Shown here piece by piece: positions 14,215 through 47,760 of a DNA stretch of 64,000 nt (within the stretch, counting starts at the first letter, position 1; every line of letters starts with the position of its first letter). The notes under the pieces were generated by a model. That model was not told the origin of the DNA. It made no database searches and saw only the letters and a list, made by a program, of their open reading frames with translations. Position numbers and translations under genes: made by a program. The stretch is from assembly GCF_000018365.1 (NCBI RefSeq), contig NC_011529.1, positions 248,001-312,000 of the forward strand. The letters are read 5' to 3'. This stretch comes from Thermococcus onnurineus NA1 (lineage in GTDB: Archaea > Methanobacteriota_B > Thermococci > Thermococcales > Thermococcaceae).

Positions 14215-15825
14215 ATGAGAAAGTACCTAGCCCCGCTTTTAATTGGAGTTTTGTTGCTCAGCGTGATTTCAAGCGGATGTATCGGAGAAAAGAATATCAC
14301 AGCCTCAAATACAAGCCCCACTTCGGCAACCCCCACCCCGTCTGAAAACAGCGAGGTTGTGCTGACACTGATTGGGCCTAGTGGAGAAAAGAGCCTGACG
14401 CTCGAAGGCCTCAAAAGCCTGCCTCAGATCGAAGGCAAAGGCGGATACAAAACAAAGATGGGCTCGATAAGAGGAGTTGGCACTTATAAGGGTGTTTCCC
14501 TAAAAGAGCTGCTCGAGCTCGTTGGTGGCCTCTCACCGGACTACAACGTTAGGATAGTTGCCGCCGATGGCTACTCCGTTGTAGTGAGCTACGATTTTGT
14601 CCTTGGAAAGGGAATTGACACCATGGACGAAAATGGAAACCCCACAGAGGGAAGCGTCGTACCCATAATAGCCTACGAGTTCAACGGAGAGCCAATAACC
14701 TTTGAGCTCGATGGGAAAGTTTACCCCATACAGATCGCTCTTGTCGGCGATGATGGATGCATAACTCCGGGCAACCTATGGGTTAAAGCAGTTACAAGGA
14801 TAGAAGTAATTAAACCATCGTATGTCAGCACCGGGACTAACGAAGAACCGAAAACCGGGTATATAACTGTCACCGATTTTAGAGGGAAGGAAGTAAAAGT
14901 CTCACAGCCAGTAAACAGAATCGTTGCCATTTACGGACTCGCTGCACAAATGGTCTACCTAATAGGCGAAGGTGAAAAAATCGTTGGCGGAACTCCGATG
15001 GTTGTGAGCGACAGCTTCATTCAGCTGATTGATCCAGATGCAAAGGACAGAGTAATCTTAGCGGGTGACCCAACGAGTGCCAACGTGGAGGAAATTAAAA
15101 AGCTCAATCCAGACGTTGTTTTTACCGCGGCTTGGGGAGATGAGCGGGTCAACGAGCAGATAGAAAGTCTCGGTATCCCAGTCATAGCCCTTGATCTGGA
15201 AACCGTTGAGAGCTACCTTAAGAGCCTCGAGATAATTGGCAAGGTTCTCGGAAAGAGGAACGAAGTCAAGGAGATAACAAAATACTACGTAAACGCTATG
15301 GAGCGGATAACAAACAAAACGTCAAAGTTCAGCGAAGACCAGAAGCCAAGGGTTCTCCTGGTCATGTACAGCATGAAGAGCAAGGCCTTTAAGGCTCCAG
15401 GTCAGGAATACTTCCAGAACAGGTTAATCGAGATGGCCGGAGGAATAAGCGTTTCCAAGGAACTGCCGGGAGGGTGGAACGTAATAAACATTGAGCAGGT
15501 TGCGGAGTGGAACCCCGACGTTATAATAGTCGTAGGTTACTCTCCAGTTTACCCGAGCACGAAGATAAAGGAAGACATCCTCAATGACCCAGCATGGGGG
15601 CAGATAAGGGCCGTGAAAGAGGGTAAAATCTACGCTATGCCAAACGACGGGGAGAGCTGGGACTACCCGGCTCCAAAGTGGATTCTCGGCCTCTACTGGA
15701 CGGCAAAAGTTCTGCATCCAGAACTTTTCAGCGACTTGGACATAATGAAAGAAGCCAACGACTTCTACGAGAGGTTCTTCGGGATAAGCATCAACGATGT
15801 ATCGCTGGTTGGTGATATAAGTTGA
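14215..15825 (+). CDS. lipoprotein: molybdopterin-oxidoreductase-like domain fused to ABC substrate-binding domain
   Basis: 536 aa. The signal peptide ends in a lipobox (VISSGC), so it is anchored outside the membrane. Residues about 45-200 (LTLEGLKSLPQIEG, VSLKELLELVG, VRIVAADGYSVVVSYDFVL, GNLWVKAVTRIEV) resemble the sulfite-oxidase-type Oxidored_molyb fold, without the cofactor-binding cysteine. Residues about 220-530 are a BtuF/FhuD-type periplasmic-binding domain (VTDFRGKEVKVSQPVNRIVAIYG, EQVAEWNPDVIIVVGY). The following permease and ATPase complete an importer of the vitamin B12/iron-siderophore type. The true ligand may be a metal chelate; the extra domain may help to capture it. Confidence 0.85.
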   Translation: MRKYLAPLLIGVLLLSVISSGCIGEKNITASNTSPTSATPTPSENSEVVLTLIGPSGEKSLTLEGLKSLPQIEGKGGYKTKMGSIRGVGTYKGVSLKELLELVGGLSPDYNVRIVAADGYSVVVSYDFVLGKGIDTMDENGNPTEGSVVPIIAYEFNGEPITFELDGKVYPIQIALVGDDGCITPGNLWVKAVTRIEVIKPSYVSTGTNEEPKTGYITVTDFRGKEVKVSQPVNRIVAIYGLAAQMVYLIGEGEKIVGGTPMVVSDSFIQLIDPDAKDRVILAGDPTSANVEEIKKLNPDVVFTAAWGDERVNEQIESLGIPVIALDLETVESYLKSLEIIGKVLGKRNEVKEITKYYVNAMERITNKTSKFSEDQKPRVLLVMYSMKSKAFKAPGQEYFQNRLIEMAGGISVSKELPGGWNVINIEQVAEWNPDVIIVVGYSPVYPSTKIKEDILNDPAWGQIRAVKEGKIYAMPNDGESWDYPAPKWILGLYWTAKVLHPELFSDLDIMKEANDFYERFFGISINDVSLVGDIS

Positions 15826-40354: not shown

Positions 40355-40442
40355 GCGGGGGTTGCCGAGCCTGGTCAAAGGCGGTGGACTCAAGATCCAC
40401 TCCCGCAGGGGTTCCGGGGTTCAAATCCCCGCCCCCGCACCA
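40355..40442 (+). tRNA. tRNA-Leu (anticodon CAA)
   Basis: The acceptor arms GCGGGGG (40355-40361) and CCCCCGC (40432-40438) pair perfectly, followed by discriminator A and an encoded CCA. The anticodon stem GTGGA/TCCAC encloses the loop CTCAAGA, giving anticodon CAA, which reads TTG. The long variable arm (after TCCAC) and the TTCAAAT T-loop are typical for leucine tRNA. A TATA-like AAATTTATAAG is about 40 bp upstream. No intron is visible. Confidence 0.97.
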
Positions 40443-40508
40443 TTCTAACAAACTCCACCTTCGCGAGATTTGATCGGGGTTCGCATGTGGGTTCCAGAAT
40501 GGCTGGTT

Positions 40509-40842
40509 CTTAAGTGAGTTTACTCATTAAGTTGTCAGTTTCTCAGTGTTTACTTCAAAATAACGCCTGAATTGGCGTTGAGAGAGGATAAACCGCCTAA
40601 CTTGCTTGTTCCTTGTTAAACCCTCGTTGAACTTGCAGTCTTAAGATGACATGCAAACTCCTTCAGCCGATTGGGGGAGTTTACCACTTGATCAGACTTT
40701 GCAGAGCGAAGTTCGCTTGCTGGCGCATGTTGAGACGCAGTCTCAACATGTCGGGAAGCTTCGCTTCCCATGAAGCGTTGACGGGAAACTTGAGTACAGT
40801 CCTAAAAGTGCTTGTTCTCAAGGGGTTAACTTTTTGATTAAC
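40509..40842. ncRNA. hairpin-rich intergenic region, possible structured RNA or element remnant
   Basis: No credible gene lies between the tRNA-Leu and topoisomerase I. The stretch holds a series of stem-loops: 40509-40531 (9 bp, one bulge), 40562-40579 (AACGCC/GGCGTT), 40655-40682 (AAACTCC/GGAGTTT), 40705-40717 (AGCGAA/TTCGCT), 40726-40750 (perfect 11-bp stem CATGTTGAGAC, loop GCA), 40753-40769 (GGGAAGC, loop TTC, GCTTCCC), and 40825-40842 (GTTAA/TTAAC). This density suggests a folded RNA or the relic of a palindromic mobile element next to a tRNA. The strand and ends are not known. Confidence 0.4.
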
Positions 40843-40909
40843 TTTGCCCATCAAAGCTTGTTCCGCAGAATTTTTATACGGCCGTCCCGTAGGGAGTAGA
40901 GGTGTCGTC

Positions 40910-43063
40910 ATGGTCACGCTCATTATCGCCGAGAAGCCTAACGTCGCGAGAAAGATAGCCTATGCCCTGGCAGAGGGTAGGCCGGTCAGGAAGACCATCG
41001 GTAAGGTTCCTTACTATGAGTTCACGCGCGACGGGAAGAGAATAATCGTAGCTCCGGCAGTTGGCCACCTCTTCTCGCTCGCCCCAAAGACGAAGACTTA
41101 CGGTTATCCGGTCTTTGATATTGAATGGGTTCCTGTCTATGTTGCCGAGAAGGGCAAGAGTTACGCTAAAGACTACATCAAGGCTCTGGCAACTCTAGCC
41201 AAACGCGCCGACGAGTTTGTAGTTGCCTGCGACTACGATACCGAGGGTGAGGTTATCGGCTATACAGCCCTCAAATACGCCTGCGGCGTTGACCCCTCAA
41301 AGGCCAAGCGCATGAAGTTCTCCGCCTTAACGAAGAAGGACCTCCTAAAGGCCTGGTACAACCTGGAATCGACCATAAACTTTGGAATGGCCGACGCGGG
41401 AATAGCACGCCATGTCCTCGACTGGTACTGGGGAGTGAACCTCTCTCGCGCCCTAACCTCTGCGATAAAGCGCGCCAGTGGCAAGTGGATGGTTCTGAGC
41501 ACCGGTAGAGTCCAGGGGCCCACTCTTAAGTTCCTCGTGGACAGGGAGAAGGAGATCCAGAACTTCAAACCCACGCCATACTGGGTCATTAAAATGGTTT
41601 TAGAGAAGAACGGCCAGCAGTACACGGCCGTTTACGAAAAGGAGCGCATCCTTGATGAAAATGAGGCCAAGCGCATCGTTGAAGAGGCCAAGAAGGGGCC
41701 GGCCTTCGTCGAGAAGGTTGATGTGAAGCAGCAGAACAGACATCCTCCGGTTCCCTTCGACCTCGGAACGCTCCAGAGGGAAGCATATTCAGCCTTTGGA
41801 TACTCACCTAAAAAGACATTAGAGCTCGCACAGAAGCTGTATGAGCGCGGATTAACGAGCTATCCAAGGACAAGCTCGCAGAAACTCCCAAAGAACCTCA
41901 ACTTCCGCTCCATACTCCAGAACCTGGCTAAGCTTCCGGAGTACAAGCCCTTTGCCCATGAGCTTCTGGGTAAGGAGAGGCTCAAACCTGTCGAAGGCAA
42001 GAAGGACGACCCAGCCCATCCTGCCATTTACCCTACAGGCGAGCTTCCAAAGCCGGGAGAGCTGACTAAAGACGAGGCCAATCTCTACGACCTAATCGTG
42101 AGGCGCTTTTTGGCTCTCTTTATGGAGCCGGCCGTTAGGGAGATAATGAAGGTCATTATAAACTCAAACGGTCACCGCTTCATTCTGAGCGGAGCCAGAA
42201 CGATTAAGGAAGGGTGGCTCAAGGTTTATGGAAAGTATGTCAAGTTTGATGAGGCTATCCTGCCCGCCTTTAAGGAGGGCGAGCCTGTTAAGGTCCTCCA
42301 GATAAAGCGTGAGAAGAAGAAAACCAAGCCGCCGGCAAGATACTCTCCCGCAGCCGTAATCAAGAGGATGGAGGACCTCGGAATCGGAACCAAGGCAACG
42401 AGAGCTCAGATACTCGAAACGCTCTACAGTAGAGGCTACATCGAGGGTAAGAAGAAGATAAAGGTAACTCCCCTCGGCATGCGAGTCGTCGAGGCCTTGG
42501 AGCGGAACGTCCCGGACATAGTGAGCGTCGAGCTGACAAGGGCCTTCGAGGAGAAGATGGAGGAGATAATGGCTGGCAAGGCCGATAAAGACAGGGTTAT
42601 AGAAGAGAGCAAGGAGCAGCTCATCAAGATTCTTCAGCAGTTCAAAGAAAAGGAGCTGGACATCGGAAAGGTCCTCATGGAAACTACGGGCACCGGTGTA
42701 ACAACGAGCAAGGAAAATGCCAAGCGCGCTGGGACGGTGAAGGAACTCAGTGAGACCGAGGAAAAAGATGTGAAGAAGACCATTGAAAAGGGAGAAAAGA
42801 CGCCCCTTGTCGTTGGCAAATGCCCTAAATGTGGCGGCGATTTGGTCGTCCGCTACAACAGAAAGACGGGGAAGAGATTCGTTGGCTGCTCGAACTGGCC
42901 GAAGTGCAACGTTACGTACCCACTCCTCCAGCGCGGGCGGATAATCCCAACGAACAAGACCTGCTGTGATGGTGCCCCTGTTGTCAAAATCCGCGAAAAG
43001 GGCAGGGAGTATGAGATTTGCCTGGATATGAACTGCAAGGACTGGAAGAAGGGAAAGAAGTGA
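40910..43063 (+). CDS. topA: DNA topoisomerase IA
   Basis: About 717 aa. The N-terminal TOPRIM domain ([26 protein letters not shown]) and the active-site tyrosine Y318 ([11 protein letters not shown]) are present. A C-terminal zinc finger (CPKCGG...CSNWPKC) and a final cysteine cluster (KTCCDG...CLDMNC) complete the archaeal topoisomerase I/III type. It relaxes negative supercoils, counteracting the reverse gyrase encoded at 57268. The ATG at 40910 is preferred: GGTG lies 5 nt upstream, and the TTTTTATAC TATA box is at about 40869-40878. Confidence 0.94.
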
Positions 43064-46115: not shown

Positions 46116-47760
46116 TCTAGAATTCTCCTAGAGTCTTATTGCAACCATTGGTTGGAGCAACACTTGGGAAGGTGAGTATCCCCGTTTCAATTCTCCTAGA
46201 GTCTTATTGCAACAAGGCTACGAGGCAAAGTATAAAGTGGAAGTCAGTAAGTTTCAATTCTCCTAGAGTCTTATTGCAACCCAAACATTTCCATCCACCT
46301 CCATCTTTTTGCTTTTTGTTTCAATTCTCCTAGAGTCTTATTGCAACTTGAAGAGATAACTACAGACATGGAGATGTTAGGGGTAGTTTCAATTCTCCTA
46401 GAGTCTTATTGCAACATATCGCCGCCCCATTCGACGACATAAGGGCGTATAAAGTTTCAATTCTCCTAGAGTCTTATTGCAACGAGGGAGAGCCATGAAC
46501 ACCTTCGGTCATTTTTTTGTGGGTTTCAATTCTCCTAGAGTCTTATTGCAACCCCGATGTCGGTCAGGTCAGCAGCCCCGATGTCGTGTTTCAATTCTCC
46601 TAGAGTCTTATTGCAACGCACTCGGTTGATGGATTCGCCGAGCTCATGGCCGACATGTTTCAATTCTCCTAGAGTCTTATTGCAACCTTGGAAATCTCCA
46701 TTATGGGTTGATTGTAGTATTCAGTTTCAATTCTCCTAGAGTCTTATTGCAACCCGTTCGTGGTGTTCTTGAAGAGGCCCTTAATGAGTAGTTTCAATTC
46801 TCCTAGAGTCTTATTGCAACTGAGGTCGAGCTCGCCGACGAGGCGGTCATTAAGTCTTGTTTCAATTCTCCTAGAGTCTTATTGCAACGCTACTACGACC
46901 GCAGGGATGGCTTTGCCGTGGAATTCGTTTCAATTCTCCTAGAGTCTTATTGCAACCGGGCCTCACCTCCATAGTACGCTTTTTCGATAGTTACGTTTCA
47001 ATTCTCCTAGAGTCTTATTGCAACGCGCTGGAAGCCGCCCGATACGTCTATGGCCCAATAGTTTCAATTCTCCTAGAGTCTTATTGCAACAGTTCCTGCT
47101 CCCACTTCTTGAGCCGGGCCTCGCGCTGTTTCAATTCTCCTAGAGTCTTATTGCAACAGAACTCACCCGCGACCGCCTTCGGGTCCTTCCTCTTGTTTCA
47201 ATTCTCCTAGAGTCTTATTGCAACATGCTAGTATTCCTGCAAAGTTTATAAACACAGAATAGTTTCAATTCTCCTAGAGTCTTATTGCAACCTGCTTATT
47301 GGGGCTGCTGGGGCTGCCCTGGTTCTAGGTTTCAATTCTCCTAGAGTCTTATTGCAACGGCCGGTAGTCTCCAGATCCAGGACTATCTCTCCCTCGTTTC
47401 AATTCTCCTAGAGTCTTATTGCAACCTGTCCAGCAGGTCTTTCACCGTACCCTGCACAAACAGGTTTCAATTCTCCTAGAGTCTTATTGCAACGCGAGAT
47501 ATGCCAGGACAAGGCCGAACGCAGCCGCGAGTTTCAATTCTCCTAGAGTCTTATTGCAACACCCCTTCGTCGTCCTCGCTTTCGCTTTCGAGGGTCGTTT
47601 CAATTCTCCTAGAGTCTTATTGCAACAGGATGGCGTCGGAGTTTAAGGCGGTGGTGAGCCGTGTTTCAATTCTCCTAGAGTCTTATTGCAACGAGATGCT
47701 AAAGGGAAAGGCCCCTGAACTCGCCGCGAAGTTTCAATTCTCCTAGAGTCTTATTGCAAC
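46116..47760 (-). CRISPR. CRISPR array, 25 repeats and 24 spacers, transcribed leftwards
   Basis: A 30-bp repeat recurs 25 times with 35-39-bp spacers. In crRNA orientation (minus strand) it begins GTTGCAATAAGACTC and ends GGAGAATTGAAAC, which gives the Thermococcales-type 8-nt tag ATTGAAAC. Repeats 2-25 appear identical. The first on the plus strand (46116-46145) has its outer five bases altered, the usual sign of the trailer end, so the leader is at the right. Read starts on the plus strand include 46184, 46251, 46318, 46386, 46454 and so on to 47731. No spacer has an evident full match in this window. The repeat family is the one processed by Cas6 in this order. Confidence 0.98.

Follow-up and report, generated by a model that had tools for sequence, protein, structure and literature searches.

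A dispersed family of fold-back repeat units beside small-RNA genes of Thermococcus and its coincidence with chromosomal inversion junctions

Introduction

Several mobile elements prefer the neighbourhood of tRNA genes, among them Ty3 of yeast, the TRE elements of Dictyostelium, and casposons, which are found at tRNA 3' ends. REP/BIME palindromic repeats, which go together with the REP-family transposase RAYT, are dispersed, extragenic, and thought to act through folded DNA. REP sequences measure 20-40 bp (PMC3733652) and Galileo of Drosophila is a fold-back/MITE-type element that generates inversions (PMC2775673). Closer to the organisms considered here, Pyrococcus abyssi carries the repeated ncRNAs sRk48/sRk52 and sRkB/sRkC, which are tied to IS607/IS605 orfB ends and occur in few copies per genome (PMC3124441). 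A dRNA-seq study of T. onnurineus counts 57 intergenic ncRNAs and reports that tRNA reads were removed (PMC5316973).

Inversions are frequent in Thermococcus and scramble its chromosomes, and several of them end at tRNA genes. Cossu et al. (2017) described two inversions between T. onnurineus and T. sp. 4557 with endpoints assigned to tRNA genes, one of 139/143 kb (Leu/Thr) and one of 102/74 kb (Leu/Gly), and found that Int-pTN3 failed to invert tRNA-Leu against tRNA-Thr in vitro; pTN3 itself integrates in a tRNA-Leu (PMC5495485). The published model failed on the natural tRNA-Leu/tRNA-Thr exchange because those tRNA genes are unlike each other.

In this paper we describe a family of hairpin-rich repeat units, two of which follow tRNA-Leu(CAA) in T. 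onnurineus NA1. The units share a preference for tRNA gene flanks with Ty3, TRE and casposons, from which they differ in being too short and non-coding, in having no integrase, reverse transcriptase or Cas1, and in lying also beside C/D and H/ACA genes. With REP/BIME they have in common that they are dispersed extragenic palindromes; unlike the REP/RAYT system, no transposase was seen near unit copies, and the GTAG or CGTC foot is absent from our end alignment (A2). At about 240-265 bp, with nested outer and inner arms, they also depart from the 20-40 bp given for REPs (PMC3733652). Fold-back/MITE-type elements such as Galileo (PMC2775673) are likewise non-coding, dispersed and of fixed length, have long terminal inverted repeats, and coincide with natural chromosomal inversions; in contrast to them, our units are archaeal, sit directly 3' of tRNA and guide-RNA genes, form tandem arrays with two-armed hairpin tips, and showed no obvious target duplication and, at the loci examined, no autonomous partner. 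The P. abyssi sequences are, like the units, repeated structured intergenic sequences of Thermococcales (PMC3124441), but the units are bound to small-RNA genes and their end model has no matches in genus g3, which is probably Pyrococcus (inferred).

Methods

The window analysed, that is, the whole stretch of 64,000 nt, covers positions 248,001 to 312,000 of the forward strand of T. onnurineus NA1 (NC_011529.1). G026, whose topA is 96% identical, was the nearest relative among the genomes compared. Rearrangements of NA1 were compared at tRNA loci and at loci matched by the covariance model, a design that breakpoints elsewhere would escape. In R1, the covariance model of the A-type unit end, only pairs 1-24, 8-17 and 9-16 count as evidence of covariation because the first regular expression used for ends forced six stem pairs.

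Results

The feature, first delimited as 40509-40842, is slightly wider (40449-40860); it starts 7 nt past tRNA-Leu(CAA) and stops about 11 nt short of a TATA-like box of topA, and an ORF check found no credible gene in the interval between the two genes. The first-pass annotation had listed at least seven inverted repeats. Its perfect 11-bp and 7-bp stems, each with a 3-nt loop, lie exactly where it had placed them (Table 1), and the hairpins are all real, although most of them are imperfect or long-looped. Perfect stems (at least 6 bp, loop of 3-8 nt) number 3 in 40509-40842 against a mean of 0.47 per 334-nt segment, and 2 of 318 such segments reach 3. Only two stems of at least 9 bp occur in the 64 kb, the 11-bp stem and a perfect 10-bp stem with a 4-nt loop at 15705-15728 (AAAAGTTCTGCATCCAGAACTTTT). 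Fold prediction, proposed with the original observation, gave z = -3.83 on the forward and -3.89 on the reverse strand for 40509-40842, and none of 100 shuffles folded as well. A known Rfam ncRNA was considered and rejected, since the region had no match at gathering level and the best hit of a permissive scan, tfoR, scored 18.4 bits where 70 are needed. Further along the window, on the reverse strand, a CRISPR array of 24 CRISPR-DR6 repeats of 30 nt each occupies 46184-47760.

Table 1. Features of the tRNA-Leu(CAA)-topA region, in window positions
Feature	Position	Strand	Basis or remark
tRNA-Leu(CAA)	40355..40442	+	small-RNA gene with units in its 3' flank; ARAGORN, Rfam RF00005
Decayed tRNA-side terminal hairpin, unit 1	40449..40478	+	CAAACTCCACCTTCGCGAGATTTGATCGGG; family form CAAACTTCGCCTTCGCGAAGTTTGATCAAGG
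Unit 1, full-length F1-class fold-back unit, about 238 bp	40463..40699	-	end-to-end alignment A4
Central hairpin, unit 1	40562..40579	+	AACGCCtgaattGGCGTT; covarying central pairs (A4, A3)
Far terminal hairpin and conserved [GC]ATCAA box, unit 1	40674..40715	-	model R1, 17.6 bits
B-type terminal hairpin with two-armed tip, linking unit 1 to unit 2	40716..40790	+	
Tip arm 1, perfect 11-bp stem, GCA loop	40726..40750	+	covariation
Tip arm 2, perfect 7-bp stem, TTC loop	40753..40769	+	
B-type end core	40773..40784	+	AAGCGTTGACGG; sole copy in window
Truncated unit 2, B-type left part fused to topA-side right end	40785..40860	+	
Further hairpins, imperfect or long-looped	40509-40531; 40562-40579 (6 bp); 40654-40681; 40705-40717; 40789-40822; 40825-40837		
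topA (DNA topoisomerase I)	40910..43063	+	ORF, relatives; start ATG at 40910; adjoins tRNA-Pro(TGG) in most relatives

Among the explanations offered at the outset were a candidate undescribed structured RNA, for which Rfam had no family, and a palindromic repeat element; the searches suggested along with them bear out the latter. A plain DNA search placed pieces of the stretch at 5 dispersed places in the NA1 genome (E<1e-3) and found copies in 42 of 61 Thermococcus genomes, while the covariance model R1 matched in 76 of 94 Thermococcaceae genomes. NA1 holds 40 R1 matches (E<0.01), or about 40 unit ends, and the number per Thermococcaceae genome runs from 0 to 47, as in a dispersed multicopy family with copy-number polymorphism. 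R1 had no match in the 9 genomes of g3 or in a few Thermococcus genomes (G022 and G060, for example), and the tRNA flanks inspected in G022 and in the g3 genome G066 are plain. A scan for the end pattern over 84,980 prokaryote species genomes matched 113 stretches, and among the matches listed (80 of the 113) all belong to Thermococcus, Thermococcaceae or Thermococci. Phage, plasmid and viral collections contained no copies of the units, and an origin from any of the three was rejected on that ground.

The family has two kinds of end, which in the 3' flanks of NA1 tRNA genes come right after the CCA, mostly within about a dozen nt. The A-type end is a small hairpin followed by a [GC]ATCAAAG box (as in CAAACTTCGCCTTCGCGAAGTTTGATCAAGG), and the B-type end a small hairpin followed by a GCGYTGRCGG box (as in CTTGCTTGCGCAAGCGCTGGCGG). 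A unit is the span from one end to its mirror image and forms an imperfect palindrome: its left and right halves repeat each other, inverted and with mismatches, on either side of a GC-rich hairpin in the middle (median z of 3.2 relative to dinucleotide-shuffled sequence). Units fall into two length classes, F1 of about 238 bp and F2 of about 265 bp, and these discrete lengths, together with matched terminal inverted repeats such as GATCAAGGTTCGTGATTCTT / AAGAATCACGAACTTTGATGAAAC, are those of a MITE or fold-back element. The ends are palindromic and contain GATC, the terminal hairpin tips frequently carry two extra arms, paralogous units differ by 25-40%, and units join head to tail into tandem arrays.

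The terminal arms covary as matched sets (GTGATTC/GAATCAC, GTAGCTC/GAGCTAC, GTGGTTC/GAACCAC). At pair one of the end hairpin, 25 of 37 sequences have C-G and 11 have G-C, which leaves a single exception, and arm 1 has 28 cells altered on both sides in 21 distinct sequences, a value reached by 0 of 500 shuffles. On these alignments, the covariation points to selection for intrastrand pairing or to regular repair that restores it; RNA and single-stranded DNA are not told apart by it as the folded form, and template-switch repair of quasi-palindromes could be an alternative source of it.

The stretch behind tRNA-Leu(CAA) is one full unit of about 238 bp and one truncated unit of this family. The terminal hairpin that joins them has the 11-bp and 7-bp stems as the arms of its tip, and the same two-armed tip is present in many loci. 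Unit 1 aligns end to end with F1 units of 16 other loci, and its genome matches (74-76% identity) adjoin tRNA-Pro(CGG) and tRNA-Gly(CCC). Its decayed tRNA-side hairpin was assigned by comparison with the 3' flanks of other NA1 tRNAs and with G026. The B-type end core recurs in NA1 behind tRNA-Pro(TGG), Arg(TCG), Met and Leu(TAG). The left part of unit 2 matches the unit behind tRNA-Pro(TGG) in G001, and its right end, with an R1 match of 21.3 bits at 40820-40860, matches the topA-side end in G026. This match and the one in unit 1 are the only two R1 matches within the 64-kb window.

In NA1, 24 of 44 tRNA genes have a unit end within 110 nt on the 3' side, 23 of them by motif (52%; 19 A, 4 B) and Gly-CCC by eye, while 0.17% (A) and 0.08% (B) of random 110-nt windows contain an end motif. 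The copies adjoin varied tRNA genes, including Gly, Pro, Ala, Arg, Met, Glu, His, Gln and Val. Of 138 ends in an independent set collected by pattern, 100 have a tRNA within 700 bp, and 52 directly adjoin the 3' end of a tRNA in sense orientation; many of the remaining ends are truncated at the edge of a contig or neighbour guide-RNA genes or intron-containing tRNA genes that the tRNA finder had missed. Other small-RNA neighbours are the C/D gene sR36 and a second C/D-like gene, and the H/ACA gene Pab160 and one H/ACA-like gene. Where small-RNA genes converge, the gap between them can be spanned by a single unit or by an array. A few unit ends come after protein genes.

Two particular arrangements were noted. 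A two-unit array at NA1 1406791-1407485 (L092:892-1586) separates a convergent pair of C/D box-type sRNA genes, of which sR36 is one, with each unit end abutting one sRNA 3' end. In two genomes a unit end that is not beside a small-RNA gene directly follows the same protein-coding gene at its stop codon (L132:7044, L149:7408).

Gene order also shows the locus to be the breakpoint of a 142-kb inversion, which the first-pass annotation had not recognised. In G026, a different unit comes after tRNA-Leu(CAA) and the rpiA region comes next, while tRNA-Thr, tRNA-Pro(TGG) and a unit precede topA. In NA1 the neighbours are swapped, the rpiA region coming after tRNA-Pro(TGG) at 146.6 kb and topA after tRNA-Leu at 288.4 kb, and 142 kb have therefore been inverted. 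The NA1 arrangement is the derived one because tRNA-Pro(TGG) stands beside topA in most other relatives, and G021 has the same ancestral order as G026 at topA/rpiA. Comparison of the NA1, G026 and G021 junctions puts the joint within the B-type terminal hairpin, where the crossover is a zone and not placeable to the base; truncated unit 2 was left behind.

A second inversion, between NA1 and G021, has its junction in the units behind tRNA-Gly(TCC) and tRNA-Leu(TAG), which are 73 kb apart in NA1, and a third rearrangement, between NA1 and G026, lies between the tRNA-Arg(TCT) and tRNA-Lys(TTT) units, in a sample that is biased towards tRNA loci. By endpoint tRNAs and approximate length, the first two are the inversions that Cossu et al. 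attributed to Int-pTN3 (PMC5495485). On this match of tRNA identity and approximate size, both published inversions would have their junctions in units 3' of the tRNAs, whereas the earlier work placed the endpoints in the tRNA gene pairs themselves.

Units are also gained or lost in place. The interval between tRNA-Val(CAC) and tRNA-Arg(CCG) has 2 units in NA1 and 1 in G026, NA1 has two more units behind tRNA-Met than G026, and the units behind tRNA-Leu(CAA) and Val(GAC) differ between the two. Where a unit has stayed in place, its identity between NA1 and G026 is often above that of third codon positions nearby (mostly 77-92%). The tRNA-Ala(CGC) unit (NA1 1340564-1340836, L104) is 100% identical over 271 nt to its G026 counterpart, against 89% for third codon positions in the gene that follows; the sR36 array is 99% identical over 693 nt and the tRNA-Gly(TCC) unit 96% over 474 nt. 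At the larger distance between NA1 and G021, the Leu-TAG tRNA plus its unit are just 68% identical. Conservation above third positions suggests a function rather than a decaying selfish element; it is unexpected for junk, and leaves room for an RNA, terminator or architectural function.

Discussion

We consider the units to be, probably, a non-autonomous fold-back DNA element that settles by preference just 3' of small-RNA genes, serves as a hot spot of recombination, and is moved by a putative mobilising enzyme. The observed steps are the family itself, its anatomy and location, the covariation of its stems, the gain or loss of units, and the coincidence with inversion breakpoints. Beyond these, a recombinase or transposase supplied in trans would place the units by acting on folded ends, either single-stranded or cruciform, and the tRNA-side end would be the entry point of new units. 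Ectopic recombination between terminal hairpins at different tRNA genes would then swap units and flip chromosome segments. At the present locus, an exchange between the tRNA-Leu(CAA) and tRNA-Pro(TGG) units may have flipped the 142 kb and left the fused, truncated unit 2. Among the loci compared, which offered no closely related pair, there was no obvious target-site duplication and no clean pair of empty and filled sites, and at the loci examined no long transposase-like ORF lay between paired ends, as an autonomous copy would have. More tentatively, and with less confidence than in the element itself, we propose that the units are unrecognised mobile or exchangeable cassettes, that their T-shaped folded ends are putative recombinase substrates, that they colonise small-RNA 3' flanks, and that they may be the actual crossover sites behind the scrambling attributed to tRNA genes.

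The main rival, which we judge unlikely, is that tRNA and guide-RNA genes have the units as functional 3' modules, acting as folded RNA or as bidirectional terminators or insulators that block read-through, shield the 3' end or keep convergent transcription apart, with the palindrome serving both sides. Their sense-specific position, the bridging of convergent genes, the slower evolution of orthologous units than of third codon positions, and the covarying stems would all fit, as would the lack of any T run of at least 4 from tRNA-Leu(CAA) to the middle of unit 2. However, G022 and the g3 genomes do without units, with plain 3' flanks at the tRNAs inspected, about half of the NA1 tRNA genes have none, and paralogous units are as divergent as described above. 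T runs are not enriched at a consistent position either: their positions after unit-bearing and unit-free tRNAs gave no clear pattern of a termination signal. It is more improbable still that the units are chromosome-architecture or protein-binding sites, for example boundaries or loading sites for condensin at small genes with high transcription, with inversions a side effect of open, hairpin-prone DNA. The restriction to small-RNA genes, the palindromic ends with their GATC, and the coinciding breakpoints are consistent with such sites, but the arms change in matched pairs so that no single binding sequence is kept, copy number is patchy (0 to 47), and there is no known protein partner.

A scar of a plasmid or virus integrated at tRNA-Leu by a tyrosine integrase of the pTN3/SSV type, which had been among the initial proposals, is very improbable. 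It would account for a position directly 3' of a tRNA, and a tRNA-Leu is where pTN3 integrates. In its usual sense the proposal is wrong, and largely refuted, because the tRNA-Leu-topA interval has no integrase ORF or remnant and the same unit type recurs behind many tRNA types and guide-RNA genes; repeats of the tRNA 3' end in the interval are no longer than 8-nt matches, and phage, plasmid and viral sets are empty of the unit. That the hairpins arose by chance in an AT-richer intergenic stretch has a negligible probability: most of the seven are imperfect, as chance would have them, but the fold z below -3.8, the compensatory changes, and above all the homologous copies in dozens of genomes, which refute it, speak against this.

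Returning to the fold-back element, dispersed elements of this kind are already known, and what is new here is the tie to genes for tRNAs and guide RNAs, the ends with two arms, and the role where archaeal inversions join; a search of the open-access full-text literature found no description of the family. The hairpin units behind the tRNA-Leu and tRNA-Thr partners are alike and hold the junctions of both published inversions, and the units thus offer concrete, testable DNA sites for the problem of Thermococcus rearrangement. In a well-studied archaeon, over half of the tRNA genes bear a 3' module that is conserved and apparently unannotated, and its role is open to test in T. kodakarensis or T. 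onnurineus.

Smaller changes around the same tRNA genes were also seen. In G001 it is tRNA-Leu(CAA) itself whose orientation to upp is reversed (L266/L267), and in most relatives that of tRNA-Pro(TGG) to topA is reversed, so that small tRNA-bearing segments invert too. Behind tRNA-Val(TAC) and tRNA-Gly(CCC) of G026, unrelated sequence replaces the units (L115, L105), and perhaps represents integrated elements or other rearrangements.
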